DNA of 64,000 nt from Anadara kagoshimensis (Eukaryota; Mollusca; Bivalvia; Arcoida; Arcidae), in the NCBI GenBank assembly GCA_021292105.1, contig CM037870.1:68799260-68863259 (forward strand). Direction: 5' to 3'. This document shows positions 87 through 48,072 of the stretch, in pieces (position 1 is the first letter of the stretch; each line of letters starts with the position of its first letter). The notes under the pieces were generated by a model that worked only from the letters and a program-made list of their open reading frames with translations, was not told the DNA's origin and did no database searches. Made by a program: the position numbers and the translations under genes.

Positions 87-1793
87 TACAGTACAGACCT
101 GGTGAAAGTTTAACACTGAGATAACGACAAGTTGTGAAAAGTCTGCTGAGTCAGAGTGGCCGAGATATGGACAGCTAGTGACTGAGAAACTGTCGAGGGA
201 TAGATGACAGCTACTAACTGGGAAACTGTCGAGGGATAGATGGCAGCTAATGACTGGGAAGCTGTCGAGGGATAGATGGCAGCTAATGACTGGGAAGCTG
301 TCGAGGGATAGATGGCAGCTAATGACTGGGAAGCTGTCGAGGGATAGATGGCAGCTAATGACTGGGAAGCTGTCGAGGGATAGATGGCAGCTAATGACTG
401 GGAAGCTGTCGAGGGATAGATGGCAGCTAATGACTGGGAAGCTGTCGAGGGATAGATGGCAGCTAATGACTGGGAAGCTGTCGAGGGATAGATGGCAGCT
501 AATGACTGGGAAGCTGTCGAGGGATAGATGGCAGCTAATGACTGGGAAGCTGTCGAGGGATAGATGGCAGCTAATGACTGGGAAGCTGTCGAGGGATAGA
601 TGGCAGCTAATGACTGGGAAGCTGTCGAGGGATTGATGGCAGCTAATGACTGGGAAGCTGTCGAGGGATAGATGGCAGCTAGTGACTGGGAAGCTGTCGA
701 GGGATAGATGGCAGCTAATGACTAGGAAGCTGTCGAGGGATAGATGGCAGCTAATGACTGGGAAGCTGTTGTGGGATAGATGGCAGCTAATGACTGGGAA
801 GCTGTCGTGGGATAGATGGCAGATAGTGACTGGGAAGCTGTCGAAGGATAGATGGCAGCTAATGACTGGGAAGCTGTCGTGGGATAGATGGCAGCTAGTG
901 ACTGGAAAGCTGTCGTGTGATAGATGGCAGCTAGTGACTGGGAAGCTGTCGAGGGATAGATGGCAGCTAATGACTGGGAAGCTGTCGAGGGATAGATGGC
1001 AGCTAGTGACTGGGAAGCTGTCGAGGGATAGATGGCAGCTAATGACTGGGAAGCTGTCGAGGGATTGATGGCAGCTAATGACTGGGAAGCTGTCGAGGGA
1101 TAGATGGCAGCTAGTGACTGGGAAGCTGTCGAGGGATAGATGGCAGCTAATGACTAGGAAGCTGTCGAGGGATAGATGGCAGCTAATGACTGGGAAGCTG
1201 TCGTGGGATAGATGGCAGCTAATGACTGGGAAGCTGTCGTGGGATAGATGGCAGATAGTGACTTGGAAGCTGTCGAAGGATAGATGGCAGCTAATGACTG
1301 GGAAGCTGTCGTGGGATAGATGGCAGCTAGTGACTGGGAAGCTGTCGAGGGATAGATGGCAGCTAATGACTGGGAAGCTGTCGAGGGATAGATGGCAGCT
1401 AGTGACTGGGAAGCTGTCGAGGGATAGATGGCAGCTAGTGACTGGGAAGCTGTCGAGGGATAGATGGCAGATAGTGACTGGGAAGCTGTCGAGGGATAGA
1501 TGGCAGATAGTGACTGGGAAGCTGTCGAAGGATAGATGGCAGCTAATGACTGGGAAGCTGTCGAGGGATAGATGGCAGATAGTGACTGAGAAGCTGTCGA
1601 GGGATAGATGGCAGCTAATGACTGGGAAACTGTCGAGGGATAGATGGCAGCTAGTGACTGGGAAGCTGTCGAGGGATAGATGGCAGCTGTCATAAAGTAA
1701 TCAAGAGAATACCTAACAAGGAGTTGAAATGAGCTGTGGATTCGGCATTAATCCGTTTACTTAGTGTGAAACTTTCGACATTTCTGTGTTGTA
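87..1793. mobile_element. TIR element copy 1 of the CAGTACAGACC family, holding a 36-bp array
   Basis: The left end TACAGTACAGACCTGGTGAA begins at 87. The right end (1756-1793) is its degenerate inverse, with GTGAAACTTTCGACA. Between them lies a 36-bp array. No coding sequence is present, so the copy is non-autonomous. The termini flanked by TA suggest Tc1/mariner- or pogo-type mobilisation, which is inference. Confidence 0.7.
171..1688. repeat. 36-bp minisatellite, about 42 copies
   Basis: The unit contains GGCAGCTAATGACTGGGAAG and CTGTCGAGGGATAGAT. Because 36 is a multiple of three, long frames stay open on both strands (12-residue repeat MTGKLSRDRWQL). The 5' half is nearly pure; the second half alternates AATGACT/AGTGACT and CGAGG/CGTGG variants. 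The unit is similar to the reverse complement of the 32-bp unit at 15995-26745. Confidence 0.97.
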
Positions 1794-3788: not shown

Positions 3789-4176
3789 TACAGTAAGGAC
3801 CTGTCGAAAATTTAACACTGAGATAATGAATAGGAGTCGAAGCTCGGATGTCGAGTGGACATGGATAGCTAGTGGTTGTCGAGTGGACATGGATAGCTAG
3901 TGGTCGTTGAGTGGACATGGATAGCTAGTGGTTGTCGAGTGGACATGGATAGCTAGTGGTCGTTGAGTGGACCTGGATAGCTAGTGGTCGTCGAGTGGAC
4001 ATGGATAGCTAGTGGTCGTTGAGTGGACATGGATAGCTAGTGGTCGTCGAGTGGACATGGATAGCTAGCTAGTGGTTGTTCGTAAAGCTACCTTAAGGTA
4101 GATAGAAGCTGAACAAAATCACTAATCAGTTGGATTAGTAAGCTTAGTGTTAAACTTTCGACAGGTCTGTACTACA
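3789..4176. mobile_element. TIR element copy 2, with a 28-bp array of about eight units
   Basis: The left end is TACAGTAAGGACCTGTCGAA at 3789. The right end is GTGTTAAACTTTCGACAGGT running to about 4176. Inside, GTCGAGTGGACATGGATAGC recurs every 28 bp from 3850 to about 4075. The sub-terminal GAAGCTCGGATGTCGAGTGG also occurs in near-identical form at the start of copy 8. Confidence 0.85.
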
Positions 4177-4341
4177 TAATTTAAAACAGATAACTACATT
4201 GGATCTGAACATAAATTGTACAACCAAAAAAGTTCTATGAAAACAAAATGTGATGTTTGAGAGTGCCACAATTATCCTTCAGTTTAAAAGTAAGTGTCTG
4301 TTCACAACAATTTATGACACAATAGACGCATTATATAGATG

Positions 4342-4700
4342 CACAGTACAGACCGAAAGTGATAACGAAGTAGTGCCGGATCAACATCTTCTTACGGCCC
4401 CTAGTAATTAGTGCCGGATCAACATCTTCTTACGGCCCCTAGTAATTAGTGCCGGATCAACATCTTCTTACGGCCCCTAGTAATTAGTGCCGGATCAACA
4501 TCTTCTTACGGTCCCTAGTAATTAGTGCCGGATCAACATCTTCTTACGGCCCCTAGTTAGCTATATGTCGTCAACTTTTCTGCTATCTCTCGGGTAGCGT
4601 TTTGACGACCCATTACCTATCCATATCTCGGCTACAGTGCAGCCAAGCTTGGACTCTTTTCGTTGGGCGCATGATAAACTTTTGACAGATCCGTACTGTA
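4342..4700. mobile_element. TIR element copy 3, with five 38-bp units
   Basis: The left end is CACAGTACAGACCGAAAGTG at 4342. The right end is ATAAACTTTTGACAGATCCG then TACTGTA, ending at 4700. Five copies of a 38-bp unit (AGTGCCGGATCAACATCTTC, TTACGGCCCC) lie at 4371-4557. The right sub-terminal part resembles the same region of copy 4. Confidence 0.8.
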
Positions 4701-4722
4701 AGTTAAATACTTCTATATATTG

Positions 4723-4933
4723 TACTGTACAGACCTGTCGAAAGTTTAACACTAAGCTAACGAATGGGTTTCGAATCGGATTCTTATCTCAGCCATTTCA
4801 GTTTTTCGGCAGCTTGTATCTAGTTCTCGGCAGTTTTTCGGTCATTACCTATCCATATCTTAGTTACTCACCAATCCAGCTTCGATTTCTTTTCGTTACC
4901 CCAGTGTTAAACCTTCGACAAGTCTCTTCTATA
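4723..4933. mobile_element. TIR element copy 4, short unexpanded form (211 bp)
   Basis: The left end TACTGTACAGACCTGTCGAA begins at 4723; the right end runs from GTGTTAAACCTTCGACAAGT to 4933. There is no array. The interior holds single imperfect versions of motifs that are amplified in other copies (CGGCAGCTTGTATCTAG, CGGCAGTTTTTCGG, CTATCCATATCT). It looks like the founder state. Confidence 0.8.
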
Positions 4934-6018: not shown

Positions 6019-9000
6019 GTATTAACAACTCCAGCTTTACAGTCAGTCGGGCAAATTGGGGGGTCTTTAATTTAATATAGAGTACCTGTGTATAAAGACC
6101 CCACATGGGACTTAAAATATAGACGCCAAGGACAAACGGTCCATATGGTTAACTGGGAAGACACCGGTTAAATATATGGGGCAATTTAGTTTAAACATTG
6201 ATCTTAATGAGCACAGTTGGTATAGGTCCCTTTGGTTACATAAGCTTAAAACTTTGGTATTAATAGACAAGTTAATGTTGCCAATTCAAACAATATATCT
6301 TTTATTTATCACTTTACGATATTTTTGGGGTTTGTTTTCTTACGGCCGTCGAAAGTGAACCAATTTTTTCAAATACGTTCAAATGTCCTTATTACATCTG
6401 GTGACCAATTTACATTTTGTGATTTAGAGAATTGTTAGACCTCTGAATAAATGGGGAAAGTATAATCAATAGAGTCATACATCCAATAGAACTGATTTCA
6501 ATTTGGCTTCTTTAAATGCGTTATACTTTTACATCATGTATACATGCATTATTGACAAGCGTTTTAAGATTTGATTTACAGTAAACACTTATATAATGAT
6601 CCCATATATGCTAAGAAATATGGACGTTACAGACAGGTGGGTTATATACAGCTTATTTTAGGCAGCAATATGAAGTAATAGAACCTTAAACACTGGTATT
6701 AATGAACATGTTATCTTATGGACAACCAAAAATACTTTAACACACTGGACAGAATTTATATAGATGTTTTGATAAATGAAACAATCGCTGAAACGTAAAA
6801 CAGTGGTAGTCTGTATCTAGAGAAATGAAGGGAATAGACATTATAACATTGGTCACAATGAACAAATAGTCTTTAATTGATACCGAAGTTTGGTTTGGTT
6901 GAAATAAACAAGGGGACTTTACAGCACTAATTTTAATGGACAGGTGTTTTTATATAGATGTTCTACCTGGTTGAAAATTGAGGCAAAGAGAGATTAAGAC
7001 AATAATCTTAATGGACAAATGGTCAATAAAGAATGGAACAATCTAGAGGATTAGTTCCGAATTCATTCGGAACATCCTCTGGATGTGAAATGATAAAGGC
7101 GACAACTTTCCCCTTTTTAGCCGCATATTCTTGCATCTTGGGAACCTTGAAAACTACTGCATAGATTTTGCTAAAAATTTCTGAGGTTGTGGAGTCTAAT
7201 GCGATCTAGCTATCTAACTTGGTGAATTTTATGGGAAAATTCGGTATCATACTTAATTTTTGGATCAAACATGCAAAAAATGAATTTTTCCAAAAAACAG
7301 TTACGTTTAACGCACTCCTGTTCAATAACCGTTCATTGTACGAAAAAGTCGTCCATTGACCGAAAAAAGTTTAAGATCTGACGGAAAAGACGGTATTTTT
7401 ATATTTTTTCTATCTTGCACATAAAATCCACAATAACTGTTTAAAGTCGGTCCGGCCCTATCATCCAAAATAAATTTAACGTACCGTTTTTAATTTGTAC
7501 CCATAATAAAGTAACCAATTCTTTACCAAATTATTGGTAGGTTAGGCACTTATCCGTTAGGTCTGTGTTAAACTTTTGATTGGCAAGTCCTGTGGATGAG
7601 CTCTACTAATTGAAATCCTCTAGATTGTTCCATTCTTTCCCGCGAAACCCCTAAAGGTGTCGCCACACTAGTAAATGGAGGGCTGACCGTAAAAAATTAA
7701 ACAGATTGTAGTTTTATAAAGACGGTCAGTATATAGCCGGTTTATTATGTACAATTTGTGTTTCAGACATACGGCAGTGATACTCAAGTAGCAGATTCCT
7801 CACAAACTGCAACAGCGCTCCTAGCGGGTGTTAAGGCAAACTGGGAGACAATAGGGGTAGATGATGCTGTAATCCCCCGAAACTGTACTTCTTCACACGG
7901 ACATGAAGTCAATACCATACTCCATTATTCCAAAATGGAAGGTAATGTGTGCCATTCTAGTTCAATCTTTAGTCTTTTAAACTAATGAAACACATACTGT
8001 AAAATCATCCATTACCAAGGTATCTAATTATAGTGGATCTAAAACTTAATACTATTTCCACGGGGTAACCAATTTGTGATTTGTACTGAATGTCTAGGGT
8101 AGGTTTGTGAAATACAGTATATTTTTTCGTTGATATTTATAATTCAACGGAAAGAGCAAAAAATTAGAGCACCAAGAAAATGAATGATTTCACAGTATTT
8201 CTATTTAATCATATTTTAACATATCTAGGACATCTCGAACACAGATACACCATATATATCCACCAGCAATATTGTGATTACGACCATAAAACATTAATTA
8301 TTGCACTTTAATTTAAAACAGTTATATATATAATTGTTTCCCCATTACGACTACATAAACAATATGTTTATCTGAAAAAGATATTAAGAAAATATATTTT
8401 AAAAAGACTTTTTTTTAAATTCTCTGTTCTTAACTTTGTGTCTTTGGTCTCTATATACAGTAAATCCAAAGTTTCAATGCCCCTGAATAACTTTGTCACC
8501 TCCGCTTTTCGCTACAAAGTTTGAAGCTCCAAATTTTATTTTTATGTTTTTCCCTGCGAATTATGACCACATTCTCCTTAAATAAGGCCAGTATTCGAAT
8601 AAATAAATGGTGAAAATGAAACTAGTCTGCACTGTACAGAACTTTGTACAATTCAGGTATTTACGCTTAATATAAGACATCGGCCACTCAGTAAATATCA
8701 TTTTTTTAATTATCAAGGAAAGTCAGTTGGAGTTGTCACAAACACGCGTGCGACACATGCAACACCAGGAGCAGCATACGCACATAGCGCTTACCGATAC
8801 TGGGAGAGCGATACAGACATGTGGAATATCACCGGAAATTGTACAGATGTGGCGTGGCAGTTGATAATGGACAATGATGTCGATGTAAGTATTTGTGTGA
8901 CGTGGAATATCACCGGAAATTGTACAGATGTGACGTGGCAGTTGATAATGGACAATGATGTCGATGTAAGTATTTGTGTGACGTGGAATATCACCGGAAA

Positions 9001-12000: not shown

Positions 12001-15000
12001 TTTTAAATAAGGAAATATGAAGCAAACATATGTTTAAACGGAGATCTTAATGGACAAGCGGTAGTCTTTATATATAAACTGTTGTTGTTTTAAATATGGA
12101 GTGGAGCAAAGAGATGTGTAAACACTGGTCTTAATGGACAGGTAGTCTTTTAATAACAATAAAATCTGTGTATCAAGACCAGTCATGGAACCTAAAACAT
12201 TCGCTTGGTAGGCAGGTGTTCTTTGATAGGGATTCTTTTTTGTTAAAAATTAAGGGAATATACGTGTATTTTTAAACACAAATCTCAATGAACAGATGGC
12301 CTTTAAAAAGAGGGGTTTTATTAGACTATTAAACTTCGCCCTTAATGGACAGGTGACTTTAATATTAAGATTCTTCATGTTTGAAATACAAAACGGAGAC
12401 GTTTTAAAGGACTTTATATAGAGGCGGTCACTGGAATGCACATGTATTTCTTACATGTATTAGTTAGCCACTTAACCGATATACAGTATATCGCGAACTT
12501 CTCCAATATAGTGAGGGAGTAGTAATTATTTTTTCGCTGTTTCGGTATGTATTCAGTAATTATATAAGACAGTTTTTGATTATAAGTTAATTAAGGTTTT
12601 AAATCTCGTTAAGTCATTGACTTCAGAAAACCGCCAAGGATACAGTACAGAATTTTCAAAAGCTTAACACAGAGTTAACCAAATGCAATCGACTTTGACT
12701 GCCTATATTGGCCAATATTTTGATAGCTAGCGACATAAAAACTGTCGAGAGATTCATAGGCATAGCAGCTAGCGAAAATCTGTCGTAATATAGTTAGTGA
12801 GGGGAAAAGATGACCTGTATTAATTCGTTAGGTTGGTCTTAAACGTTCGACAGACCTGTACTGTACTGTATATTTCGTTTCGTTTTTTTTTTATATTTTT
12901 ATAACAGTCCGGTATGTTATCAATATTTAGTTTTACCCCTCTCAGCTTCTATCAGTTATAACACAAAAATATCAGTACAGGCACTTGTTTTACTTGGCAA
13001 AGAACTGCATATCATAACACAGTCATATGACGTTGTTGGAGTTATTCTTCTTCTTATTATTATTATTATATTATTTTAAAAAATCAAAATTATGCGAAAA
13101 TATAATAAAAGTTACAAAAATAATATAACCGCATCACCAGACACTCACTTTAGTACCCGTCTAAAATCGAGCCTTGTAACTGTTTGTCAAAATATATGGT
13201 CGATTATTATTTTAATGTAGAGTGGCTTTAAGGAGTCAAGATACTTTAACTTATATCGAGGAGGTTAGTTCAGAGATAGCAAAGGACACCCGAGAACTAA
13301 AAGAAAACGCTGACATTTGAAAAGCGAATCGACACACTTTCTTAAATATTTTCCAGAGTTGGATTCGAACTTAACCAGGCTGATATCCGTAAACGCACTC
13401 GTCAACCGTAGCAAACCTTTATCGGCTATGAGTATTAAAGTATTATAAAGTTGAAAAACTACGTTAAATCAAAGAAAGGAATGTGTGAGACCCCTGTGGG
13501 ACCCCTATATGTAGTAACTACCACAAATGTAGTAACGGTCACAATTGTAATAAAAAAAAGTGTCACATATGTAGTAACGAATCACAAATGTAGTGAGGTT
13601 TGTCACAAATGTAGTTAATGTTGGTCACATATGTAGTAAAATTTTACCACAAATGTAGCAACAAAATTTTACCACAAATGTAACAACTCAATTTTACCAC
13701 AAATGTAGTAATATTTAAAAAATGATAAAATATAATATTTTTCACAAAGGATAATATCTCGGCTAGTTTTTAATGACAGAATTGTGATTTCTCTATTAGG
13801 TAATTTTAAGGAATGTCTGAAACCCCCAACCCCCGGTTTCACTCGGCGATTTCAAACATGTCCAGTTTGAGTGTAAGCGTCAAATGCAAGTCTATTTTAG
13901 TCAGTCAAAGCTACCCATAAAGATGCGAAATGTCACGGTTCATGTCCATGTGAACAGTCATTTTCAGCTATAATCACTGATGACAATGCTACTACAAGGC
14001 AGTCCCGAGATGAATTACACATCTCGACATTTATGAGTGATATAATTTTTTGATTGTTATTGGTGACACCCCCATCTTCGATTGGTTGAATTTTATTTAT
14101 TTGTTATGGTTTGTTTATTATTCCACATTCTGCAGACATAACAGGAACCCTCAAAGAATTATTCACACAATGATCTGTCCCTAGTGGATTGTGTACGTAC
14201 CCAGACTGTGAGAAGCGCACCTAGATCACTAAATTGCTACGGTACAAGAAATATTATATGATTACAGACGTTCTATTTTACAGACTGAAGAAAATAACTA
14301 ATCTTACACACATCTATATATCATAAAAATCAGCAAATATTAAAAAAAACAACTTTGTGAGCGACACATATTGGACCAAGTCAAGTGCTTCCATAACCGT
14401 AAACACGTACATTTAATACGTGAACAGTTGAAAGCATTTAGGAAAGAAGTGCGAAAAACTGTTCTTGCAGTCGAATTATAAAATATCAAGAGTCGTAATT
14501 TTTATAGAAGCAACAAAGAGGAACGATCGTTCTGTAAGTCATTGTGGCCAGTGGACTTGCATACCAAATATCATGATCCGTGTAATATCCACAAGCGTTT
14601 AGAAAATAAAGAATTGCAGAAAACTGTTATTTCAGCGAAATTATCAAAGACAAAGGGTCTGAATCGTAAAAAAATGCGGAGCTGGTTCCAACACGTAAAT
14701 TGATCTGCAACTCATTGTGATTGACTTGCATTCAAAATATCGGCCTCAATCTTTAAGCATTCAGGAAAAACTGCAGAAAACTTATGACAGACTGATGACC
14801 AGCCTTAGGGACGGGCATACAACATTATACCTCCTGCAACATGAATTGCGTGAAGTATAATAATAACTACCCTACTTTAATCTGCCAAAATACAGTGTAC
14901 ACCTAAAACTGAACGCACTTTACAAACCAAAGTATAGTGAAAACAAGAGTCCAATGGGCCGTATCGCTCATCACATAATAGATATGAAAGTCGCTTTATC

Positions 15001-38100: not shown

Positions 38101-41100
38101 ATCCAACCCTATATTTTGTGTTTCAGACAATTAAAGTTTTATTCCGTTCTATATTTTTGTCTGGTAACAATTTTGGACCTATGATGTACAGTGTACAATA
38201 CCAATAAGTATCATTGTATGCATATACTGTTCTTGTCAAAATAAAATCTTCATGGACAAGAGTATGTCATAATATTGATAACTTACAAGGTACAATTATT
38301 TTATTTTATTTCCTTCGCCATTTACTCCTTTTATAATTCAGTATTCAAGACAATGTTGATTGACTTAATTTATCAGGGACATTGCGATGATTTTTTTTGT
38401 TATTTATTTCAATCATGACATTTGTTGATATTACGATTAAAACTCTTTAATATTGTTTCATGATTACTAGTAGTATTTTTGCAATTGAATGGTGGAAACT
38501 CAAACTAATCATGTTTTGAGTTAATCGCCTATCGTTTTCTTGACACTAGGTGGCGTGATCCGCTACTCACAAATTGATTCGTTACTGACGTAAATACATG
38601 GGGTACAAAACGCGTGGATTGACCATACTTATAGTCGGACGATTTTTATCATCTAATGATAAATTGAAAGAGTGGAGAAATGTCAATTGATAGTACCAAA
38701 AAAATACAATCGGCAGCGATGTTTTTCTCGGAGAGCAGTGAATATTGCACTAATGATCCGCTACTGCCGTAAGCACTGTATCCATGGACTTTGTCTATTT
38801 TAAGTTGATCTTGATCAGACATGTATTTAATTTGTTTATATATATTCTAATTTTGGATAATACCTAGACGCATATATACATATGAACTGTCTATTAAAAC
38901 GCCGCGTCATTGAGAAGACACGCTCCATAAAATTACGTTCTTTATATTCTGTATAGATCTATGTTAAGATCGAATTAAAGATGCAAGTTTTACCTACTTT
39001 TATAGGGTCTGGTCCTCTATACAGTACAGACCTGTCAAAACTTTTTACACTGAGCTAACGAAAAGGATTTGAAGCTCGACTGTCGAGTAGTCGAGACACG
39101 GGTAGGCAGTGTCTGTAAACATGCTGTCATGATATGGATGTCGAGTGGTCGAGACACAGATAGCCAGTGTCTGTAAACAGGCTGTCATAATATGGCTGTC
39201 GAGTGGTCGAGACACGGGTAGGCAGTGTCTGTAAACATGCTGTCATGATATGGATGTCGAGTGGTCGAGACACAGATAGCCAGTGTCTGTAAACAGGCTG
39301 TCATAATATGGCTGTCGAGTGGTCGAGACACGGGTAGGCAGTGTCTGTAAACATGCTGTCATGATATGGATGTCGAGTGGTCGAGACACAGATAGCCAGT
39401 GTCTGTAAACAGGCTGTCATAATATGGCTGTCGAGTGGTCGAGACACGGGTAGGCAGTGTCTGTAAACAGGCTGTCATAATATGGCTGTCGAGTGGTCGA
39501 GACACGGTAACCCAATGTCTGTAAACAGGCTGTCATAATATGGCTGTCGAGTGGTCGAGACACAGATAGCCAGTGTCTGTAAACATGCTGTCATGATATG
39601 GATGTCGAGTGGTCGAGACACGGTAACCCAGTGTCTGTAAACATGCTGTCATGATATGGCTGTCGAGTGGTCGAGACACAGATAGCCAGTGTCTGTAAAT
39701 ATGCTGTCATGATATGGATGTCGAGTGGTCGAGACACGGTAACCCAGTGTCTGTAAACATGCTGTCATGATATGGCTGTCGAGTGGTCGAGACACAGATA
39801 GCCAGTGTCTGTAAACATGCTGTCATGATATGGATGTCGAGTGGTCGAGACACGGTAACCCAGTGTCTGTAAACATGCTGTCATGATATGGCTGCCGAGT
39901 GGTCGAGACACGGTAACCCAGTGTCTGTAAACATGATGTCATGATATGGCTGTCGAGTGGTCGAGACACGGTAAACCAGTGTCTGTAAACATGCTGTCAT
40001 GATATGATTGTCGAGTGGTCGAGACACGGTAACCCAGTGTCTGTAAACATGCTGTCATGATATGGCTGTCGAGTGGTCGAGACACAGATAGCCAGTGTCT
40101 GTAAACATGCTGTCATGATATGGATGTCGAGTGGTCGAGACACGGTAACCCAGTGTCTGTAAACATGCTGTCATGATATGGCTGCCGAGTGGTCGAGACA
40201 CGGTAACCCAGTGTCTGTAAACATGATGTCATGATATGGCTGTCGAGTGGTCGAGACACGGTAAACCAGTGTCTGTAAACATGCTGTCATGATATGGCTG
40301 TCGAGTGGTCGAGACACAGATAGCCAGTGTCTGTAAACATGCTGTCATGATATGGCTGTCGAGTGGTCAAGACACAGATTGCTAGTGTCTGTAAACATGT
40401 TGTCATGATATGGCTGTCGAGTGGTCGAGACACAGATAGCCAGTGTCTGTAAACATGCTGTTATGATATGGATGTCGAGTGGTCGAGACACGGTAACCCA
40501 GTGTCTGTAAACATGCTGTCATGATATCGATGTCGAGTGGTCGAGACACGGTAACCCAGTGTCTGTAAACATGCTGTCATGATATGACTGTCGAGTGGTC
40601 GAGACACGGTAACCCAGTGTCTGTAAACATGCTGTTATGATATGGCTGTCGAGTGGTCGAGATACAGATAGGCAGTGTCTGTAAACATGCTGTTATGATA
40701 TGGCTGTCGAGTGGTCGAGACACGGTAACCCAGTGTCTGTAAACATGCTGTCATGATATGGCTGTCGAGTGGTCAAGACACAGATTGCTAGTGTCTGTAA
40801 ACATGCTGTCATGATATGGCTCTCGAGTGGTCGAGACACAGATAGCCAGTGTCTGTAAACATGCTGTCATGATATGGCTGTCGAGTGGTCGAGACACGGG
40901 TAGCCAGTGTCTGTAAACATGCTGTCATGATATGGCTGTCGAGTGGTCGAGACACGGGTAGCCAGTGTCTGTAAACATGTTGTCATGATATGGATGTCGA
41001 GTGGTCGAGACACAGATAGCCAGTGTCTGTAAACATGTTGTCATCATATTGATGTCGAGTGGTCGAGACACGGGTAGCCAGTGTCTGTAAACATGCTGTC

Positions 41101-44100
41101 ATGATATGGCTGTCGAGTGGTCGAGACACGTGTAGCCAGTGTCTGTAAACATGTTGTCATGATATGGATGTCGAGTGGTCGAGACACGGTAAACCAGTGT
41201 CTGTAAACATGCTGTCATGATATGGCTGTCGAGTGGTCGAGACACGGTAACCCAGTGTCTGTAAACATGCTGTCATGATATGGCTGTCGAGTGGTCGAGA
41301 CACAGATAGCCAGTGTCTGTAAACATACTGTTATGATATGGCTGTCGAGTGGTCGAGACACGGTAAACCAGTGTCTGTAAACATGCTGTCATAATATGGA
41401 TGTCGAGTGGTCGAGACACAGATAGCCATTATCTGTAAACATGCTGTCATGATATGGATGTCGAGTGGTCGAGACACGGTAACCCAGTGTCTGTAAACAT
41501 GCTCTCATAATATGGCTGTCGAGTGGTCGAGACACAGATAGCCAGTGTCTGTAAACATGCTGTCATGATATGGATGTCGAGTGGTCGAGACACGGTAACC
41601 CAGTGTCTGTAAACATGCTGTCATGATATGGCTGCCGAGTGGTCGAGACACGGTAACCCAGTGTCTGTAAACATGCTGTCATGATATGGCTGTCGAGTGG
41701 TCGAGACACGGTAAACCAGTGTCTGTAAACATGATGTCATGATATGATTGTTGAGTGGTCGAGACACGGTAACCCAGTGTCTGTAAACATGCTGTCATGA
41801 TATGGCTGTCGAGTGGTCAAGACACAGATTGCTAGTGTCTGTAAACATGTTGTCATGATATGGCTGTCGAGTGGTCGAGACACAGATAGCCAGTGTCTGT
41901 AAACATGTTGTTATGATATGGATGTCGAGTGGTCGAGACACGGTAACCCAGTGTCTGTAAACATGCTGTCATGATATCGATGTCGAGTGGTCGAGACACG
42001 GTAACCCAGTGTCTGTAAACATGCTGTCATGATATGACTGTCGAGTGGTCGAGACACGGTAACCCAGTGTCTGTAAACATGCTGTTATGATATGGCTGTC
42101 GAGTGGTCGAGATACAGATAGGCAGTGTCTGTAAACATGCTGTTATGATATGGCTGTCGAGTGGTCGAGACACGGTAACCCAGTGTCTGTAAACATGCTG
42201 TCATGATATGGCTGTCGAGTGGTCAAGACACAGATTGCTAGTGTCTGTAAACATGCTGTCATGATATGGCTCTCGAGTGGTCGAGACACAGATAGCCAGT
42301 GTCTGTAAACATGCTGTCATGATATGGCTGTCGAGTGGTCGAGACACGGGTAGCCAGTGTCTGTAAACATGCTGTCATGATATGGCTGTCGAGTGGTCGA
42401 GACACGGGTAGCCAGTGTCTGTAAACATGTTGTCATGATATGGATGTCGAGTGGTCGAGACACAGATAGCCAGTGTCTGTAAACATGTTGTCATCATATT
42501 GATGTCGAGTGGTCGAGACACGGGTAGCCAGTGTCTGTAAACATGCTGTCATGATATGGCTGTCGAGTGGTCGAGACACGTGTAGCCAGTGTCTGTAAAC
42601 ATGTTGTCATGATATGGATGTCGAGTGGTCGAGACACGGTAAACCAGTGTCTGTAAACATGCTGTCATGATATGGCTGTCGAGTGGTCGAGACACGGTAA
42701 CACAGTGTCTATAAACATGCTGTCATGATATGGCTGTCGAGTGGTCGAGACACAGATAGCCAGTGTCTGTAAACATACTGTTATGATATGGCTGTCGAGT
42801 GGTCGAGACACGGTAAACCAGTGTCTGTAAACATGCTGTCATAATATGGATGTCGAGTGGTCGAGACACAAATAGCCATTATCTGTAAACATGCTGTCAT
42901 GATATGGATGTCGAGTGGTCGAGACACGGTAACCCAGTGTCTGTAAACATGCTGTCATGATATGGCTGTCGAGTGGTCGAGACACGGTAAACCAGTGTCT
43001 GTAAACATGCTGTCATGATATGGATGTCGAGTGGTGGAGACACGGTAACCCAGTGTCTGTAAACATGTTGTCATGAAATGGATGTCGAGTGGTCGAGACA
43101 CAGATAGCCAGTGTCTGTAAACATGCTGTCATGATATGGCTGTCGAGTGGTCGAGACACGGTAACCCAGTGTCTGTAAACATGCTGTTATGATATGGCTG
43201 TCGAGAGGTCGAGACACAGATAGCCAGTGTCTGTAAACATGCTGTTATGATATGGCTGTCGAGAGGTCGAGACACAGATAGCCCGTGTCTATAAACATGC
43301 TGTCATGATATGGCTATCGAGTGGTCGAGACACAAATAGCCAGTGTCTGTAAACATGCTGTCGTGATATGGCTGTCGAGTGGTCAAGACACGGTAACCCA
43401 GTGTCTGTAAACATGCTGTCATGATATAGATGTCGAGTGGTCGAGACAAAGTAACCCAGTGTCTGTAAAACATGCTGTCATGATATGGCTGTCGAGTGGT
43501 CGAGACACGGTAACCCAATGTCTGTAAACATGCTGTCACGATATGGCTGTCGAGTGGTCAAGACACAGATAGCCAGTGTCTGTAAACATGCTGTCATGAT
43601 ATGGATGTCGAGTGGTCGAGACACGGTAACCCAGTGTCTGTAAACATGCTGTCATGATATGGATGTCGAGTGGTCGAGACACGGTAACCCAGTGTCTGTA
43701 AACATGCTGTCATGATATGGCTGTCGAGTGGTCCAGACACAGATAGCCATTATCTGTAAACATTCTGTCATGATATGAATGTCGAGTGGTCGAGACACGG
43801 TAACCCAGTGTATGTAAATATGCTGTCATGATATGGATGTCGAGTGGTCGAGACACGGTAACCCAGTGTCTGTAAACATGCTGTCATGATATGGATGTCG
43901 AGTGGTCGAGACACAGATAGCCAGTGTCTGTAAACATGCTGTCATGATATGGATGTCGAGTGGTCGAGACACAGATAGCCAGTGTCTGTAAACATGCTGT
44001 CATGATATGGATGTCGAGTGGTCGAGACACGGTAACCCAGTGTCTGTAAACATGCTGTCATGATATGGATGTCGAGTGGTCGAAACACGGTAACCCAGTA

Positions 44101-45689
44101 TCTCTAAACATGCTGTCATGATATGGCTTTCGAGTGGTCGAGACACGGTAACCCAGTGTCTGTAAACATGCTGTCATGATATGGCTGTCGAGTGGTCGAG
44201 ACACAGATAGCCAGTGTCTGTAAACATGCTGTCATGATATGGCTGTCGAGTGGTCAAGACACAGATTGCTAGTGTCTGTAAACATGCTGTCATGATATGG
44301 ATGTCGAGTGGTCGAGACACGGTAACCCAGTGTCTGTAAACATGCTGTCATGATATGGCTGTCGAGTGGTCGAGACACAGATTGCCAGTGTCTGTAAACA
44401 TGCTGTCATGATATGGCTGTCGAGTGGTCGAGACACAGATAGCCATTATCTGTAAACATGCTGTCATGATATGGCTGTCGAGTGGTCGAGACACGGTAAC
44501 CCAGTGTCTGTAAACATGCTGTCATGATATGGATGTCGAGTGGTCGAGATACAGATTGCCAGTGTCTGTAAACATGCTGTCATGATATGGATGTCGAGTG
44601 GTCGCGATCGAGACACAGATAGCCAGTGTCTGTAAACATGCTGTCAAGATATGGATGTCGAGGGTTCGAGACACGGTAACCCAGTGTCTGTAAACATGCT
44701 GTCATGATATGGATGTGGAGGGTTCGAGATGATCTGTTTCTTTTGCAATAAATCGCTGCATTCGTGTTAAACTTTCGACAGGTCTATACTGCATATTTTT
44801 GAAAAAGCACACGGTCTGAGTAATGTCAATAGGTATTTGATATGCCGACGTTTTTTTCTTCTAAAATTGACGACATCTGAATTCGTTTACTAGTAAAATG
44901 GTGTTTTTTTTTTTAAATAGTGAAATCTGATATCGGAAAATTTATAAACTTGGGCGATGACTACCCATCAGTATTAGGAAAACAAAAAATAATTTGTTTT
45001 GGAAAGAATTACTTAGTTCAGAGGATCAGAATTCGGCATTACAATTTCCAATTTTGCAAAATAAAAATAAATAGAAAAACAGTTTTATACGAGGCATGGT
45101 ATAGACAAGGTGTTTTACAATACAAAATCTATTAAATGAAAAGGGCAGATTCTTTACTTATTATATGATTATAATGAGATATATATGAAAGGTTATTTGA
45201 AACATAAATGAGTGAGTGAGTAATGGTGTTTAACGTCCCAGTCAAGAATATTTCACTTATATCGAGACGTCGCCAGCTATAGGCGAAAGTGCAGAAATTT
45301 TGCCTGTGCGTTGCGCTTATGGCATTAAATATACAGCAGGGTTCTTTAGCGTGCCAAGCCCAACGTGACACGGGACCACGTTTATTTTAAGTTCCCATCC
45401 GAAAGAACCGTGACTTTCATTTCGTAATGTCGAGTGCTTGGCAAAAGAACAGTCACTACCCACTTTCAAGTCTTGGGTCAGACCCGGCCGGGGTTCGAAC
45501 CCACGACCTTCCACTTACGGAGCAAGCACTCTACCAACTGAGCTACCGCAGTGGTTCAAAAACATAAATGAAAAGTGTTCTGTAAATAATAACGTGTTAA
45601 CTACGGTAGTAAGGTTTATTTTTCGATTAAGTAGAATGTAGAGACTTCGTAGCTTTGTCTTGTATTATGATATATGGTTGACACACCGA

Positions 45690-45733
<44 letters not shown>

Positions 45734-48072
45734 GTCATTGTTATATATTGTATGTTTAATTTTTTAAAATTAAAAAGTGTGGATTTAGGACAAGTTCATC
45801 TAAATTAAAAAAAATATGGGGTCATATTTATGTAGTGTCATGTACCTGTTGAAAGTGACGTAAGGTTATGGGTAGCAGCTGCAAAAAACACAGCTGAGAT
45901 ATGGATGAGAGGGTTTGTTTGAGGCGATACTTTGTAAGCGTAGTGTTAAACTTTGATCTCGGTATGTCATTATAAGTCATAAATTATACACAGATATTTT
46001 AAGGCCAAGCTAAAATAATATACTGCTCACACATTTCATACTAGGGAAATTCAAAACCCTATGTATAAATTACATTGCTTCCTCCAAAGTTTGAAGACTT
46101 CTGCATGAAATATATATATATAGCAGTAAGGGCAATTGTTTCTTACCTATTAATCAAGTCAGGGACTAATTTTAGCTTCAACCAACCAGAATAACAGAAC
46201 GCATGTTTTTAAGATAAAATAATTATATTATACAATTCAGCTAAATAAAGTATGTGTGTACTGTTTATAACGAATAACATATTATCCAATACACAAGGGA
46301 CCTTTAATGCCTAGTGTTGTGAATCGGTGGCGTGCGGATCACATCGACTCTCAATAACTGTGTTCCCTTTTAAGAAGAGCTTAATGTCGGAAAGTTTGTC
46401 TGTGCGTTTTCCGAAGGTAAGATGTTTGTCCAGAGCATTCGATTGCTTCCCTCTGACATCGCAGTGAAAAGAATCTAAAGTATAAACAGAAATGGATTAC
46501 ACTCAGTTATTTGTCTCTAAAAAGTTTATTACTGAAAATATTTTATTTTTTCTTAATAAAATATATTTATAATCAACCGGCCTAATATGCACTTTAGGTT
46601 TCCATAATGTATAGTTTGCTATAATCCAGCTTTACTGAGAAAAATTTCACAATTTCTGCAATGATGAAAAATTAACAAAGTCTGTTTACTCCGCCTTTTT
46701 CCCATGTAAGGCATAATGATAGTTCATGACCTTTTTTCATCATATAACCAGTTTATTATGCAAGAAAGACTAATCAACCATTTTCCTGCCCTGTATTAAG
46801 GCCAAACCAAATCAAGTTCTGTTTAATGTTATTTTACCATAATACATTCTAAAGAAATTTCCGCTATGATTCAGATGGGAAAATGCTTATATGAGCAAGT
46901 AGACGGAAGTTAGGTATGTATCTGGAATTCTTTTTTTTTAATTCTCAGAAATATACAGAGATGTAAATTTATATATGTACATCTCAAACCTAATACTACC
47001 TTTTTACCAGTAGCTTAATAAAGCAATGGATTAAAGAACAATTAGTGATACGCTTATGCTTTTGTAAACAGTTAAAAATAAACATGTATAAATTGCATTC
47101 ACTTCAAGTGCAAGTCATTTTGCAATTTACTTGACAGTTGTTGGATCTGTTACTCTCTCCATAACCTTATACACAGGTATTTATTTTTCTTTGGCCTCAT
47201 TTTGGTGTCATCAAGCTGTTGTCCAGTCTATAAGTCAATCACCTGTGACACCTTTTAAACTTTGAATGACACTCATAGTAAAAAGGGTTTGGTTTGTCAT
47301 AAGAGGTGGAGTCAAATACTTAGATTTTTTCAGCTTGAACATTTTTGGCAAAAATTTACACTATACAGAGGCAAAGTCTCAAGCGATAAAAAATTCAAAC
47401 CATTATGATAAATTAGGCCGAGTCATGTTATATACACAGCCAAATTTCTGTTTCTCATCTTCAACTGATTTTTGAGAAAAATCCGTAAAACTGAGTGTAA
47501 TCCATTTCTGATTATACTTTAGACTGGTGCATAACACCATTTCCCTACTCTAGTGCATAAAATTTGTCTGTTCGCTTTCAAAGACTAGCATTCCGGTTTC
47601 CCCCAACATGCCAGAACAGATTGTGTTGATGTACACGTTACAGAATGTAGACTGATACACAACACCTTTTCTTTTGTACATAAGATACCTCTTATCAACA
47701 TCGGACAAAACAAACATTATGACTGGTGATTTGGACAAAAATATCATCACTGATGTGTTTTCTTTATTCTATTTTACAGCAGCCAACAATTACGTCCAGG
47801 AATCGCCGGTTCCTTTAAGACTGGAAACACATTCTGGAGAGGACGTCGGGATATATTCCAGAGGACCGCTATCCCATCTGTTACACGGTGTCCAGGAACA
47901 ACATTATATAGCACATGTGATGATGTATGCTTCCTGTGTGGGTAAAAATAAAAAACATTGTGAGAGAAGCGCACCTGTTTCACCAAACAACGCCTCTCTA
48001 TCAAAGTGTCATTATTTGTCATTTGTAGCAATCGCTATCATATTATTCATTATAACAATTATGTATATATAA
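5801..48072 (+). CDS. ALP: Alkaline phosphatase, GPI-anchored type, nine exons (5' end missing)
   Basis: Joined exons: 5801-6018, 7767-7941, 8718-8884, 11784-11894, 31618-31720, 32790-32930, 34654-34845, 36820-36948, 47780-48072. All introns are GT/AG, all phases match, and 508 codons precede TAA at 48070. Family knowledge: a secreted or membrane-tethered zinc/magnesium phosphomonoesterase that works through a phosphoserine. Seen here: VGDGMG (Zn2 Asp), ADSSQTATA (catalytic Ser after Asp), THATP (metal-site His and Thr), the arginine in AYRYW that binds phosphate, [11 protein letters not shown] (Glu, Asp, His ligands), TADHSH (Asp, His) and ETHSGEDV (last His). All expected catalytic positions are present, so the enzyme looks functional. 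The C-terminus has two Cys, a polar stretch and a hydrophobic end ([17 protein letters not shown]), as in GPI-anchor signals. The first visible exon begins at residues NDWEKMAQ, so the signal-peptide exon lies upstream and was not recognised. The paralogue type (bone/liver versus intestinal) cannot be told. Confidence 0.95.
6070..7027. repeat. Degenerate dispersed repeats in intron 1
   Basis: The motif 'tcttaatggacaggt', and variants such as 'attaatgaacatgtt' and 'cttaatggacaaatgg', recurs at irregular 70-120 bp spacing. The same motif family reappears at 11930-12450. No coding potential is seen. Confidence 0.45.
7028..7638. mobile_element. Small inverted-repeat element with perfect 25-bp termini
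   Basis: Positions 7028-7052 and 7614-7638 are exact reverse complements (AAAGAATGGAACAATCTAGA at the start). The left end also holds a local hairpin, TTCCGAA/TTCGGAA. Near the right end, TTAGGTCTGTGTTAAACTTT resembles the inner end of the CAGTACAGACC family. No target duplication was identified. Confidence 0.7.
7767..7941 (+). CDS. ALP: Alkaline phosphatase exon with the catalytic serine
   Basis: Acceptor TTTCAG ends at 7766; donor GT at 7942. It encodes [26 protein letters not shown] and on to LHYSKMEG. The serine directly after Asp in ADSSQTATA is the expected phosphorylated nucleophile. Many family members have Ala-Gly or Ala-Ala where this one has Ser-Gln. The exon enters in phase 0 and leaves one base of a glycine codon, matching the next exon. 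Confidence 0.93.
7942..8717. other. Intron 2, AT-rich
   Basis: No repeat, ORF or RNA gene was recognised between the two exons. Confidence 0.6.
8718..8884 (+). CDS. ALP: Alkaline phosphatase exon whose 3' end seeds an 81-bp array
   Basis: The acceptor AG ends at 8717. The exon completes the glycine codon and then encodes [20 protein letters not shown] to the end, DNDVD. The first consensus donor, GTAAGT at 8885, gives 55 full codons, about the length expected for the family before the next exon (VTLGGG). Part of the exon ([21 protein letters not shown]) is repeated downstream about 31 more times, each copy carrying a donor-like site. Later donors could therefore be used in frame, at least up to about 9777. 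Two N-glycosylation sequons (NIT, NCT) lie in the repeated part. Confidence 0.9.
8821..11408. repeat. 81-bp array made of alkaline phosphatase exon 3 end plus its splice donor, ~32 copies
   Basis: The unit is the last ~64 bases of the exon (from GTGGAATATCACCGG to GATGTCGAT) plus the donor and the first ~17 intron bases. Units 1-4 and most units after 10746 keep GTAAGT after GAT. Most middle units have GGTAGT or AGTAGT instead. From about 10990, units alternate between GACTATCACC and GAATATCACC, a 162-bp dimer. Single-base deletions (near 9776, 10612, 10790) and CAGTAG stops (9992, 10154, 10480) interrupt the frame. Confidence 0.97.
11409..11783. other. Intron 3 tail
   Basis: Unique AT-rich sequence lies between the 81-bp array and the acceptor at 11783. 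Nothing else is recognised. Confidence 0.6.
11784..11894 (+). CDS. ALP: Alkaline phosphatase exon (VTLGGGR region)
   Basis: The acceptor is TTTCCAG ending at 11783 and the donor GT is at 11895. The exon is 37 codons in phase 0: [20 protein letters not shown] through [10 protein letters not shown]. The Gly-rich VTLGGGR strand is well conserved in alkaline phosphatases and joins directly to the end of the preceding exon. Confidence 0.92.
11930..12450. repeat. Degenerate dispersed repeats in intron 4
   Basis: 'Cttaatggacagg(t)' recurs with 'tctttat' and 'aacac' neighbours at 12048, 12133, 12290 and 12350. This matches the degenerate repeats of 6070-7027. Confidence 0.45.
12641..12865. mobile_element. 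TIR element copy 5, short form with two subunits (225 bp)
   Basis: The left end TACAGTACAG begins at 12641. The right end GTTCGACAGACCTGTACTGT ends at 12865, giving TA at both ends. Inside are two imperfect subunits, GATAGCTAGCGACATAAAAA then CTGTCGAG, and GCAGCTAGCGAAAATCTGTCG. They look like the amplified unit of copy 1 at the two-copy stage. Confidence 0.8.
12866..13494. other. Intron 4 spacer
   Basis: AT-rich sequence with a short TTA-rich tract near 13055. No gene or clear element. Confidence 0.55.
13495..15400. mobile_element. Second MITE family, copy A, with perfect 42-bp termini
   Basis: Positions 13495-13536 and 15359-15400 are exact reverse complements (TGTGGGACCCCTATATGTAG outermost). 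The similarity continues inward through sub-repeats of CACAAATGTAGTAAC. ACCCC flanks both ends and may be a 5-bp target duplication. The interior has a 'cacttctatcgg' sub-repeat at 15001-15185 and no coding frame. Confidence 0.8.
15410..15795. mobile_element. Truncated direct copy of the left part of the second MITE family
   Basis: The sequence matches 13551-14130 in order: GTGTCACATATGTAGT, TTTACCACAAATGTA(G/A), ATGATAAAATATAATATTTT and GGTTTGTTTATTATTCCA. It has internal deletions and lies right beside copy A. Confidence 0.7.
15796..15929. repeat. Short tRNA-like SINE remnant
   Basis: GCAGGTTCGAACCCTGAC near 15821 is a good tRNA B-box. No A-box was found, so it is a fragment rather than a tRNA gene. 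Confidence 0.35.
15930..26854. mobile_element. TIR element copy 6, 10.9 kb, carrying a giant 32-bp array
   Basis: The left end is TACAATACAGGCCTGTCGAA at 15930. The right end is TTTCAACAGGCCTGTATTAT up to 26854, the reverse complement of the left end with a few changes. GTTAGCT lies inside each end. The sub-terminal sequence next to the right end (CACTACCTATCCATATCTTG) matches copy 4. Everything between is the minisatellite, with no protein. Confidence 0.85.
15995..26745. repeat. 32-bp minisatellite, about 335 copies
   Basis: The unit contains TAGCTGTTATCTATATCTCG and ACAGCTTCTCGG. Variant domains are visible: GTAGTTG/TTGACA mixed units at 17100-18000, ACAGGTTCTCGG at 18206-18375, GTACTTG units at 21000-22400, and GGCAGCAGTTA units at 23600-23760. 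A six-base AGATCT-type insertion gives TATAGATCTATA at about 20272, 20404, 20726, 24150, 24580, 24935, 25100 and 25410. Since 32 is not a multiple of three, open frames here are three-unit coincidences. Confidence 0.98.
26855..27769. other. Intron 4 spacer with one foldback
   Basis: AT-rich sequence. The only structure seen is the inverted repeat listed separately at 27154-27257. Confidence 0.55.
27154..27257. repeat. 104-bp foldback palindrome
   Basis: CATGGTATTTAAAGGGGTAA, then TGCAAGAT and GTGGCACG, pair with CGTGCCACTATCTTGCATTA and CCTTGAAATACCATG. The arms have a few bulges and a loop of about 25 bases. It may be a tiny MITE or the stem of one. Confidence 0.65.
29131..29173. repeat. 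(ATGT)n microsatellite
   Basis: About ten pure ATGT units in copy B of the second MITE family. Confidence 0.97.
29415..31313. mobile_element. Helitron-like element with ~330-bp internal repeats
   Basis: The 3' end has a perfect 7-bp hairpin, AGGCTCC-TG-GGAGCCT (31294-31309), followed by CTAG (31310-31313) and then host T. This is the signature of a Helitron terminus. Upstream, a block with 'gccaatgggaaccaaacttg', 'ccttagatggtaccttctg' and 'aatccaagatgg' repeats four to five times at roughly 290-340 bp. The 5' terminus is not defined, and no Rep/helicase is present. The class is inferred from the end structure only. Confidence 0.55.
31618..31720 (+). CDS. ALP: Alkaline phosphatase exon (HQYVWN region)
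   Basis: Acceptor TTTCCAG ends at 31617; donor GT at 31721. It encodes [18 protein letters not shown] and ends TTDSLL plus one base of glycine. It follows a 19.7-kb intron packed with repeats. The match to the family lies in the HxYVWN and SLLGLF stretches. Confidence 0.88.
31753..32082 (+). mobile_element. tRNA-derived SINE in intron 5
   Basis: ATGGCCGAGTGGTACTG (A-box region) and GTGGGTTCAAACCTC (B-box) sit about 35-45 bases apart, as in a Ser/Leu-type tRNA. About 250 bases of non-tRNA body follow, ending in a TATATA tract at 32068-32082. The rest of intron 5 (32083-32789) shows nothing. Confidence 0.7.
32790..32930 (+). CDS. ALP: Alkaline phosphatase exon ([15 protein letters not shown])
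   Basis: Acceptor TTTAAAG ends at 32789; donor GT at 32931. It encodes [15 protein letters not shown], then [14 protein letters not shown] and [10 protein letters not shown]. The Glu of MVEG is the expected magnesium-site ligand. Read-through into the intron would stop after five codons. A 39-bp tandem array begins about 55 bases downstream of the donor. Confidence 0.92.
32985..34480. repeat. 39-bp minisatellite in intron 6, about 38 copies
   Basis: The unit contains TTATTCCAACGGTAGTATCA and TTACTGTCCCTGTAGGGAG. It is very pure, with a few CAACAGTAG units and two short CCCTGTAGTCC or CCTCTAGTCC insertions near 34300 and 34420. Since 39 is a multiple of three, a 514-codon frame is open on + ([13 protein letters not shown] repeat) and 222 codons on minus. 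Neither has the features of a gene. Confidence 0.97.
34654..34845 (+). CDS. ALP: Alkaline phosphatase exon with metal ligands ([14 protein letters not shown])
   Basis: Acceptor ATTTAG ends at 34653; donor GTAAGT begins at 34846. It encodes [19 protein letters not shown] and on to [19 protein letters not shown]. Asp and His of IDRAHH and Asp-His of TADHSH are zinc ligands in the family. The more usual motif is IDHGHH; here Arg-Ala replaces His-Gly between the ligands. A TIR element starts only about six bases past the exon end. Confidence 0.93.
34852..35063. mobile_element. TIR element copy 7, short form, against the exon 7 donor
   Basis: The left end TATACAGATTTGTAGAAAGT begins about six bases after the exon 7 end. 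The right end is GTGTTACATTTTTACAGGTC to about 35063. The interior has single motifs (CGCGACAGGCTATCG, CTCTCAGCAGTTTTTCAG) comparable to copy 4. There is no array inside. Confidence 0.65.
35063..35350. repeat. 24-25-bp minisatellite, about 12 copies
   Basis: The unit is TTTATGTGTACACATGATAA plus TCAC, with ATGTACCACATG and GTGAACAC variants and partial units. It starts right at the right end of TIR copy 7. The remainder of intron 7 (35351-36819) is AT-rich and holds only the hairpin listed separately. Confidence 0.93.
36616..36672. repeat. 57-bp perfect hairpin in intron 7
   Basis: TGTCATGTGCTACTTTTGA (36616-36634) and TCAAAAGTAGCACATGACA (36654-36672) are exact reverse complements of 19 bases with a 19-base loop. 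Pairing continues imperfectly outward (TATCC against GGATC). The size is like a small-RNA precursor stem, but there is no evidence of expression. Confidence 0.75.
36820..36948 (+). CDS. ALP: Alkaline phosphatase exon ([10 protein letters not shown])
   Basis: Acceptor TTGTTTCAG ends at 36819; donor GTACGT begins at 36949. It encodes [16 protein letters not shown], then [18 protein letters not shown] and [14 protein letters not shown] is a hallmark of the family. The donor was chosen because the last base (a) joins the next exon's CA to give a Thr codon and an unbroken DTTANNY. Confidence 0.9.
36966..37190 (+). mobile_element. tRNA-derived SINE in intron 8
   Basis: TAGAGCATCGGACTTCAGAT resembles a tRNA A-box and anticodon arm. 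GTGGATTCGAATCCCGAC is a clear B-box. A non-tRNA body follows, ending near an A-rich run at 37168-37190. It begins about 20 bases after the exon 8 donor. Confidence 0.7.
37373..38780. mobile_element. Third TIR element, 1.4 kb, TA-flanked
   Basis: The left end TACAGTGCTTACGGCATTAG then CGGATC (37373-37398) is matched by the reverse complement at 38755-38780 with one mismatch. If TA is the target duplication, the terminus begins CAGTGC, as in Tc1/mariner/pogo-type MITEs. No transposase frame is seen. Confidence 0.75.
39020..44793. mobile_element. TIR element copy 8, 5.8 kb, carrying a 58-bp array
   Basis: The left end is TACAGTACAGACCTGTCAAA at 39020; the right end is GTGTTAAACTTTCGACAGGT, then CTATACTGCA, to 44793. 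The sub-terminal GAAGCTCGACTGTCGAGTAG is close to that of copy 2. The interior is all minisatellite. Confidence 0.87.
39080..44735. repeat. 58-bp minisatellite, about 97 copies, with 1,450-bp higher-order repeat
   Basis: The unit contains GTCGAGTGGTCGAGACAC, then GGTAACCCAG or AGATAGCCAG, then TGTCTGTAAACATGCTGTCA. Rare variants recur exactly 1,450 bp (25 units) apart: GGTCAAGACACAG at 40367 and 41817, TCATCATATT at 41041 and 42491, GACACGTGTAGCC near 41126 and 42576. About 1.2 kb is therefore block-duplicated. Confidence 0.97.
44794..45204. other. Intron 8 spacer
   Basis: AT-rich. A 71-codon ORF at 44920-45135 lacks any recognisable similarity, and nothing else is seen. Confidence 0.55.
45205..45556 (-). 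mobile_element. tRNA-derived SINE, minus strand, molluscan type
   Basis: Read on the minus strand, the head (45481-45556) gives GCGGTAGCTCAGTTGGTAGA (A-box) and GTGGGTTCGAACCCC (B-box). The two ends of the head do not pair as an acceptor stem, so it is a SINE head rather than a tRNA gene. The tail end on the plus strand is GAGTGAGTGAGTAATGGTGT and TTAACGTCCCAGTC, typical of molluscan SINE 3' regions. Confidence 0.85.
45692..45729. repeat. (GT)n microsatellite
   Basis: Nineteen uninterrupted GT dinucleotides. Confidence 0.98.
45841..45966. mobile_element. TIR element copy 9, degenerate short form
   Basis: TGTACCTGTTGAAAGTGACG at the left and AGTGTTAAACTTTGATCTCG at the right echo the family termini over about 125 bp. 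CACAGCTGAGATATGGATGA lies inside. It is weaker than the other copies. Confidence 0.5.
45967..47779. other. End of intron 8, AT-rich, with a distant inverted repeat
   Basis: No exon or RNA was recognised. Positions 46474-46508 and 47489-47523 are inverted repeats of 35 bases with one mismatch (TCTAAAGTATAAACAGAAAT against its complement). They may bound an element of 1,050 bp. Confidence 0.55.
47780..48072 (+). CDS. ALP: Alkaline phosphatase terminal exon with GPI signal
   Basis: Acceptor ATTTTACAG ends at 47779. It encodes [20 protein letters not shown], then [20 protein letters not shown] and a hydrophobic C-terminus, with TAA at 48070-48072. The His of ETHSGED is a zinc ligand. Ser and Asn residues before the final hydrophobic 17 residues are plausible GPI attachment sites, but the exact one cannot be told. 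AATAAA at 48105-48110 is the first possible poly(A) signal. Confidence 0.94.

Follow-up and report, generated by a model that had tools for sequence, protein, structure and literature searches.

A TA-inserting MITE of Anadara kagoshimensis as a probable seed of minisatellites through amplification in place and self-insertion

Satellites can derive from DNA transposons, either from their terminal inverted repeats (TIRs) or from their central portions, and also from arrays inside miniature inverted-repeat transposable elements (MITEs) such as Xstir and miDNA4 (PMC12628747, PMC9659126). The latter two, Tc1/mariner-type MITEs of Xenopus, are short elements bounded by TIRs that carry tandem repeats internally, those of Xstir being thought to derive from MITE internal sequence, and the passages cited describe one repeat type for each (PMC12628747, PMC9659126). 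Internal repeats are also found in the pearl-type MITEs of bivalves; the pearl family and DTC84 are MITE-like mollusc elements with internal tandem repeats, and in the passage cited the repeats of pearl (CvA) are related to the monomers of the BIV160 satellite (PMC5139131). Tetris of Drosophila virilis is a non-autonomous foldback DNA transposon, with a helper given as unknown in the text cited, and its TIR repeats, of one 220-bp type already present within the TIR, have expanded to satellite arrays (PMC4079207). According to the section cited, minisatellites may start by slippage or unequal exchange at short repeats (PMC6947457).

The element analyzed here resembles these systems but differs from miDNA4 and Xstir in that different segments of it, ends included, form arrays with many periods, and from Tetris in having no fixed repeat domain. 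It is also unlike a tandem-repeat MITE with one resident repeat, since most of its arm pairs are array-free and the array units come from different segments. The monomers of BIV160 are about 160 bp long; the central repeats of about 160 bp that characterize pearl, CvA and DTC84 were not found in 13 arrays of the present element, which have periods of 25-107 bp, and its TIRs of about 40 bp are located at TA targets. MITE self-insertion occurs in plants. McGurk and Barbash are said to have described in 2018 how double insertion of transposable elements provides a substrate for satellites, a copy inserted into or beside another copy forming a dimer that is then amplified. Compared to this, insertion at internal TAs of a 227-bp MITE would yield units smaller than the element, with predicted periods. 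Each of the ingredients is known, including tandem-repeat MITEs and nested insertion, and what differs here is their combination in one precursor, nearly all parts of which give arrays, with end-containing arrays whose periods are set by internal target sites. A literature search on MITE self-insertion and nesting returned reviews and relatives and no description of the present case, by which we do not claim absence from print, and the 13-base end of the element gave no match in literature text. Altogether, we consider it probable that a non-autonomous, TA-inserting MITE of about 227 bp seeds minisatellites in two ways, by amplification in place and by self-insertion at internal TAs.

The window, the whole stretch of 64,000 nucleotides analyzed, corresponds to C14:68,799,260-68,863,259 of an assembly of 1.115 Gb. 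The terminus of the element was matched 67,926 times genome-wide with at most two mismatches, a count inflated by array units that themselves carry the terminus, while the reversed pattern used as control was matched four times. On C1, 40 stretches around exact termini were read together with L001, giving 41 loci; four terminus arrays and two isolated terminus matches are kept apart from these, and the array adjoining the match of L030 is uncounted. The window and the C1 loci together contained 56 arm pairs, 41 of which span 160-270 bp with a mode near 220 bp. These short, array-free copies are the majority among the loci read and gave a non-coding consensus of 227 bp, to which they are 78-91% identical and whose TIRs, about 40 bp long, start with TACAGTACAGACCTGTCGAAAG. 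At this length the copies could not code for a transposase. All 44 rows that we tried to orient, the 41 short copies and trimmed E2, E6, and E8, could be oriented. Among 30 hand-picked isolated copies, TA was found at 23 left ends and 23 right ends, and at both ends in 16. Flanking sequence is shared by several of the C1 loci, which resemble duplications of longer segments. In 20 evenly spaced 10-kb stretches of C14 (200 kb) we found 12 element pieces, by our reading about 11 elements, covering 1.06% of the bases; arrays of the element were absent from these stretches.

CAGT ends are usual in the Tc1/mariner superfamily. With its short length and TIRs, its high copy number and its repeated target-site duplication, the element appears to be a very abundant non-autonomous DNA transposon of the MITE type, Tc1/mariner-like by its TA target duplication and CAGT-type ends. 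Transposase matches of the DDE_3 (Tc1/mariner) type with open frames are many in the genome (150 scored among 1,547 candidates). The ends of the element were absent from the flanks of the two of these 150 that were inspected, where no autonomous relative was found, and one DDE_3-type copy on C17 has ends of its own beginning TACAGTGAC. As neither of the two inspected copies carries the ends of the element, the superfamily assignment rests on target and end type. The exact 24-base terminus gave no match in viral contigs, in a search that possibly did not cover the records of the window's own genome.

The preliminary description placed nine loci of one TIR family in the window. Using a terminus profile of the terminal 50 bases (threshold E<0.001), which is partly circular as it was built from seven of the window's elements, we recovered 15 of the 18 arms expected for these loci. 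Both arms were recovered for E1, E2, and E4 to E8, while E3 had one clear arm and a left arm that carries deletions (E 2.5). The plain 20-mer end was matched nine times in the window with at most three mismatches, compared to no match in 100 shuffles. Eight of the nine loci are copies of one TA-flanked inverted-repeat element, and the one at 45841 is weak. The five arrays of 36, 28, 38, 32, and 58 bp were found as described. When E3 was viewed in context, positions 4520-4700, the last unit included, aligned to consensus positions 1-187. At 35064-35348 there is an array of 24/84 bp, unrelated to the element, that starts only a few bases away from the right edge of E7.

Copies of the element in the window, with positions in the window, strand and basis of assignment
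Copy	Positions	Strand	Description	Basis
E1	87..1793	+	Both arms; 36-bp array at 167-1688 (42 copies)	Terminus profile; unit matches consensus 84-144, E 8e-6
E2	3789..4176	+	Both arms; 28-bp array at 3850-4068 (7.8 copies)	Unit weakly matches consensus 75-98, E 0.08; 1/500 shuffles
E3	4342..4700	-	One arm damaged; 38-bp array at 4371-4557 (4.9 copies)	Unit weakly matches consensus 149-187, E 0.02
E4	4723..4933	-	Short array-free copy, 211 bp	Full-length profile, E 2.7e-48
	7545..7593		Single arm, absent from the preliminary description	Terminus profile, E 6.4e-7; full-length profile
E5	12641..12865	+	Short array-free copy, 225 bp	Terminus and full-length profiles
E6	15930..26854	-	10.7-kb array of 32 bp at 15992-26729 (336 copies)	Unit matches consensus 60-151, E 1.3e-14
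E7	34852..35060	-	Short copy, about 209 bp	Terminus and full-length profiles
E8	39020..44793	+	58-bp array at 39080-44729 (97 copies)	Unit matches consensus 58-106, E 2.3e-6
E10	45841..45966	+	Doubtful copy, short and decayed	Arms E 0.18 and 2.9; absent from full-length profile matches at E<0.001

The loci had been taken to lie in a single gene, which the exon matches support only in part. Exons of an alkaline phosphatase (PF00245) were identified at about 5.9, 7.8, 8.7, 34.7, and 47.8 kb, but four of the nine loci precede the first matched exon. The window contains further repeats. In an 81-bp array at 8821-11418 (32 copies), the unit combines the 3' end of one of the alkaline phosphatase exons with the presumed splice donor of that exon; it corresponds to 27 codons and is open over long stretches, and the array still has 13 GTAAGT motifs that are intact. 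At 32982-34482 there is a 39-bp array with 38 copies; it is located between two exons of the alkaline phosphatase, inside an open frame of 517 codons that encodes 13-residue repeats. A second inverted-repeat element at 13495-15400 has 60-bp arms that are 97% complementary and 18-25-bp repeats near its ends; its 21/42-bp repeat AAAGTCACTTCTATCGG is found again at 29211-29418. Finally, a 1.4-kb element at 37373-38780 has 26-bp inverted ends starting TACAGTGCTTACGG, and two reading frames, one inside and one just before it, gave no Pfam match.

The element makes up 4.2% of the window's non-array sequence and contains five of its ten larger arrays (binomial P 2.9e-5). The count of ten leaves out smaller clusters (at about 13.5-13.7, 15.1-15.5, 29.1-29.4, and 63.7 kb), and P becomes 0.0003 when five smaller clusters outside the element are added. 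In a minisatellite-rich genome the overlap of arrays with the element might be coincidental, since as many of the window's larger arrays lie outside it as inside it and the evenly spaced stretches of C14 contain many unrelated arrays. We regard this as extremely improbable in view of the enrichment and of unit sequences that derive from the element, and for the five window arrays taken jointly coincidence was ruled out on these two grounds; the case against it is weakest for the 38-bp array. The proportion of array-bearing loci was 5 of 10 in the window compared to 5 of 41 on C1 (Fisher p 0.017; 5 of 37 and p 0.024 when recomputed on 37 loci) and none of about 11 on C14, with sampling favoured for two of the five C1 array loci, L044 and L057, that have the terminus in their unit. 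The window is therefore atypically rich in element-borne arrays.

We compared the units of 13 element-linked arrays, five from the window and eight from C1, to a profile of short copies only. Ten of them matched the element at E<0.01, two matched weakly (E2 and E3) and one did not match (L059), whereas none of 18 unrelated control arrays, chosen by hand, matched at this threshold (best E 0.03). Arrays of 86, 103, and 51 bp were mapped separately, outside the 13. Besides the segments given for E1, E6, and E8 in the table, the amplified parts of the consensus were found to be 24-49 and 88-154 (25-bp units), 97-150 (46 bp), 125-226 (107 bp), 133-179 (43 bp), 1-40 (43 bp), and 1-68 (72 bp). In the sense orientation, the likeness of the window units to array-free interiors was equalled or exceeded by 0/500 shuffles for 36, 32, and 58 bp, by 1/500 for 28 bp and by 34/500 for 38 bp. 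In reverse orientation, the units of 36 and 58 bp likewise scored above most shuffles (10/500 and 11/500), and for the five other window arrays, in either orientation, the best result was 61/500. The proposed kinship of the units with short-copy interiors thus holds for the 36-, 32-, and 58-bp arrays, but the 28- and 38-bp units are related weakly. Across the 13 arrays, with ten units mapping back to the element, units unrelated to the interiors are not the rule.

The preliminary description named termini that come only with arrays, or units unrelated to the short copies, as observations that would speak against it, and neither was observed. In the known tandem-repeat MITEs an array is a constant part of the element. 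It is quite improbable that this holds here, with the short copies as contractions and the periods as drift of one unit. The consensus interior does contain imperfect 32-bp repeats, and the units of E1 and E6 represent one segment with a 4-bp difference; however, other units come from non-overlapping segments with both ends included (e.g., 1-40 versus 133-179), 41 of the 56 paired copies are short with a common interior, and the array-bearing copies are scattered on the tree. On this tree, which leaves out four short copies resembling duplicated loci and is built from sequences so short that they resolve little, seven changes were required for nine array-bearing rows among 46 (shuffle mean 8.4; 125/1000 as low). 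An array-prone sublineage was rejected, as the array-bearing copies do not cluster on the 46-row tree, and one shared ancestral unit was rejected, as the array units map to different element segments. From these comparisons, the element appears to turn different pieces of itself, its ends included, into tandem repeats.

Exact copies of the 36-bp unit of E1 were found 16 times in the genome, 15 of them in the window and one on the minus strand of C14 (67,128,858-67,128,893), 1.7 Mb from the window. For the 32-bp unit of E6 there were at least 24 exact matches, all in the E6 array among the matches listed, where the nearest match outside E6 has one mismatch and lies on C9; the window alone holds 75 exact matches and 302 with at most three mismatches, and exact copies elsewhere may be missed. 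A 32-base piece of the E8 unit consensus, i.e., a consensus piece and not a real unit, had no exact match genome-wide, the window included, and so says nothing on where the E8 array grew. Within the five window arrays the units were 90-98% matched, compared to the 78-91% identity of copies to the consensus. This fits with recent array growth inside old insertions, and homogenisation would look alike. Growth in place appears to be supported for two of the window arrays, the 36-bp array of E1 and, with an incomplete list of matches, the 32-bp array of E6. The idea of a mobile seed that first spreads and afterwards expands in place is in agreement with the dominance of short copies, with the ten of 13 units that map back, with the lack of clustering of array-bearing copies on the tree and with the restriction of 15 of 16 exact 36-bp units to the window, with the qualification that the 28- and 38-bp units are weakly related to the element.

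Amplification in place would start with the duplication of a stretch of an inserted copy, followed by its amplification there. The interior of the element is made of imperfect direct repeats, and slippage or unequal exchange would therefore find ready seeds. The strongest self-lag of the consensus is 32 bp (0/1000 shuffles as good), equal to the period of E6, and the motif GCTGYCGA is found five times (positions 59, 100, 121, 132, and 167). The periods of the interior arrays are 36, 28, 38, 32, 58, 25, 25, 46, and 43 bp; among these, 32 bp agrees with the strongest self-lag and 46 bp with a weak one, and the other seven follow no rule found. As most interior periods match no clear self-lag, we infer slippage or unequal exchange at these repeats rather than observe it, and slippage at the consensus's own repeats may be regarded as only partly supported. 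We also infer that the five arrays of the window, with units lacking element ends, arose by such amplification in place.

That expansion concerns the interior alone, as first proposed, proved wrong genome-wide, since ends are amplified too, after self-insertion. Several of the terminus matches on C1 were found to be arrays with a unit that contains the element end. In L071 an outer copy (consensus 4-117) is followed by a complete inner copy (1-226), located at approximately TA116 of the outer copy, and then by the outer remainder (133-226); this remainder and the end form a 103-bp unit present in five copies. A nested outer/inner/outer structure was also found in L036, L061, and L070, with the inner copy of L070 reversed. 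Six further loci with a single match to the joint predicted for TA87 (L075-L080) were chosen for that joint, and only the sequence after it counts as independent evidence. L080 consists of outer 3-88, inner 1-226, and outer 96-226, and L076 of outer 3-88, inner 1-220, and outer 116-172. L077 reads 1-88, 1-84, 1-222, and then 83-186, corresponding to serial insertion, while L075 and L079 were without outer remainder and L078 without a clear outer match. At C1:823-828 kb (L002 and L073), 43-bp arrays of both ends lie in opposite orientation around a remnant, with about 50 and about 20 copies, forming a very large inverted repeat; the number 50 was estimated from coordinates, with 0.4 kb unread between the loci.

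These structures suggest how end-containing arrays could form. A copy would insert at an internal TA of another copy, and the first part of the outer copy followed by the complete inner copy would give head-to-tail repeats that begin at the element end. Serial insertion, or unequal exchange between the direct repeats, would then lead to arrays with a period equal to the length between the element end and that TA. The nesting is seen directly in the sequence, and the amplification would be a subsequent step. The periods predicted for TA87 (86 bp) and TA183 (43 bp) both recur genome-wide.

We searched the genome for the predicted joints. The TA87 joint, interior position 86 joined to the end, gave 670 matches with at most three mismatches. 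The best 100 of these (0-1 mismatch) were grouped by hand into 28 loci, comprising nine arrays with spacings of 84-90 or 45 bp, two pairs, and 17 loci with one listed match. A non-TA control joint was matched 34 times, at 10 loci; one 97-bp array on C13 accounts for 25 of these matches and is the only locus matched with 0-1 mismatch. A second control joint gave 1,243 matches, none exact and 16 with one mismatch at six loci (11 in one C1 array); this control is poor, as its matches within three mismatches include the joints predicted for TA77, TA142, and TA183, and it gives no support. The TA183 joint was matched 1,928 times when one mismatch was allowed; the best 100, all exact, represented eight loci, five with spacings of 42-43 bp, one of 46 bp, one of 48 bp, and one single match. 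The TA183 joint is one letter apart from a joint at left-end position 43 and has the same period; it is therefore the letter and not the period that favours TA183. Loci with a common joint may be copies of one event.

In a blind alignment of 11 joints, a set that leaves out L061 and was classified by our own reading, five were located just before a consensus TA, one was tied, two were off by one base, and three lay elsewhere, compared to 9 of 150 interior positions (6%) that precede a TA. Joints away from a consensus TA were those of the 97-bp array on C13 and of an array on C1 at 8.636 Mb. Targeting of TA thus appears well supported from the joints read, and it does not appear to be universal. 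Replication slippage or template switching, with breakpoints at random, is an unlikely origin for all arrays, the end-containing ones included, with self-insertion as an incidental finding. Transposition is unnecessary for interior arrays and some joints are off the consensus TA; however, the units of end-containing arrays begin at the element end, or only a few bases from it, and not in flanking DNA, nested outer/inner/outer structures are present, and TA87 joints far outnumber the one non-TA joint, the other control being poor.

We also consider, tentatively, that the interior of the element contains preferred TA targets for its own transposase, and that repeated self-insertion alone builds arrays with quantised periods. 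Under this reading, periods of 43 bp would come from TA183, those of 86 bp from TA87, and others from TA77, TA83, TA116, and TA144. As every unit would carry a transposon end, such arrays might themselves stay mobile. Since the 18 control arrays were unrelated to the element, it may account for part, and not most, of the minisatellites in the genome.

How the first two copies of a tandem repeat arise has long been asked, and the answer has mostly been deduced from arrays that are already complete. In the present genome a single precursor, its sequence known, is found in tens of thousands of copies, some of them untouched, some nested in pairs, some in a serial triple (L077), and some grown into long arrays. 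The periods of its arrays would be predictable from the TA positions of the precursor and can be checked, so that transposition and slippage become separable by joint counts. If self-insertion at preferred internal targets alone does build arrays, the birth of a tandem repeat would be a transposition process, and not a matter of replication error alone.
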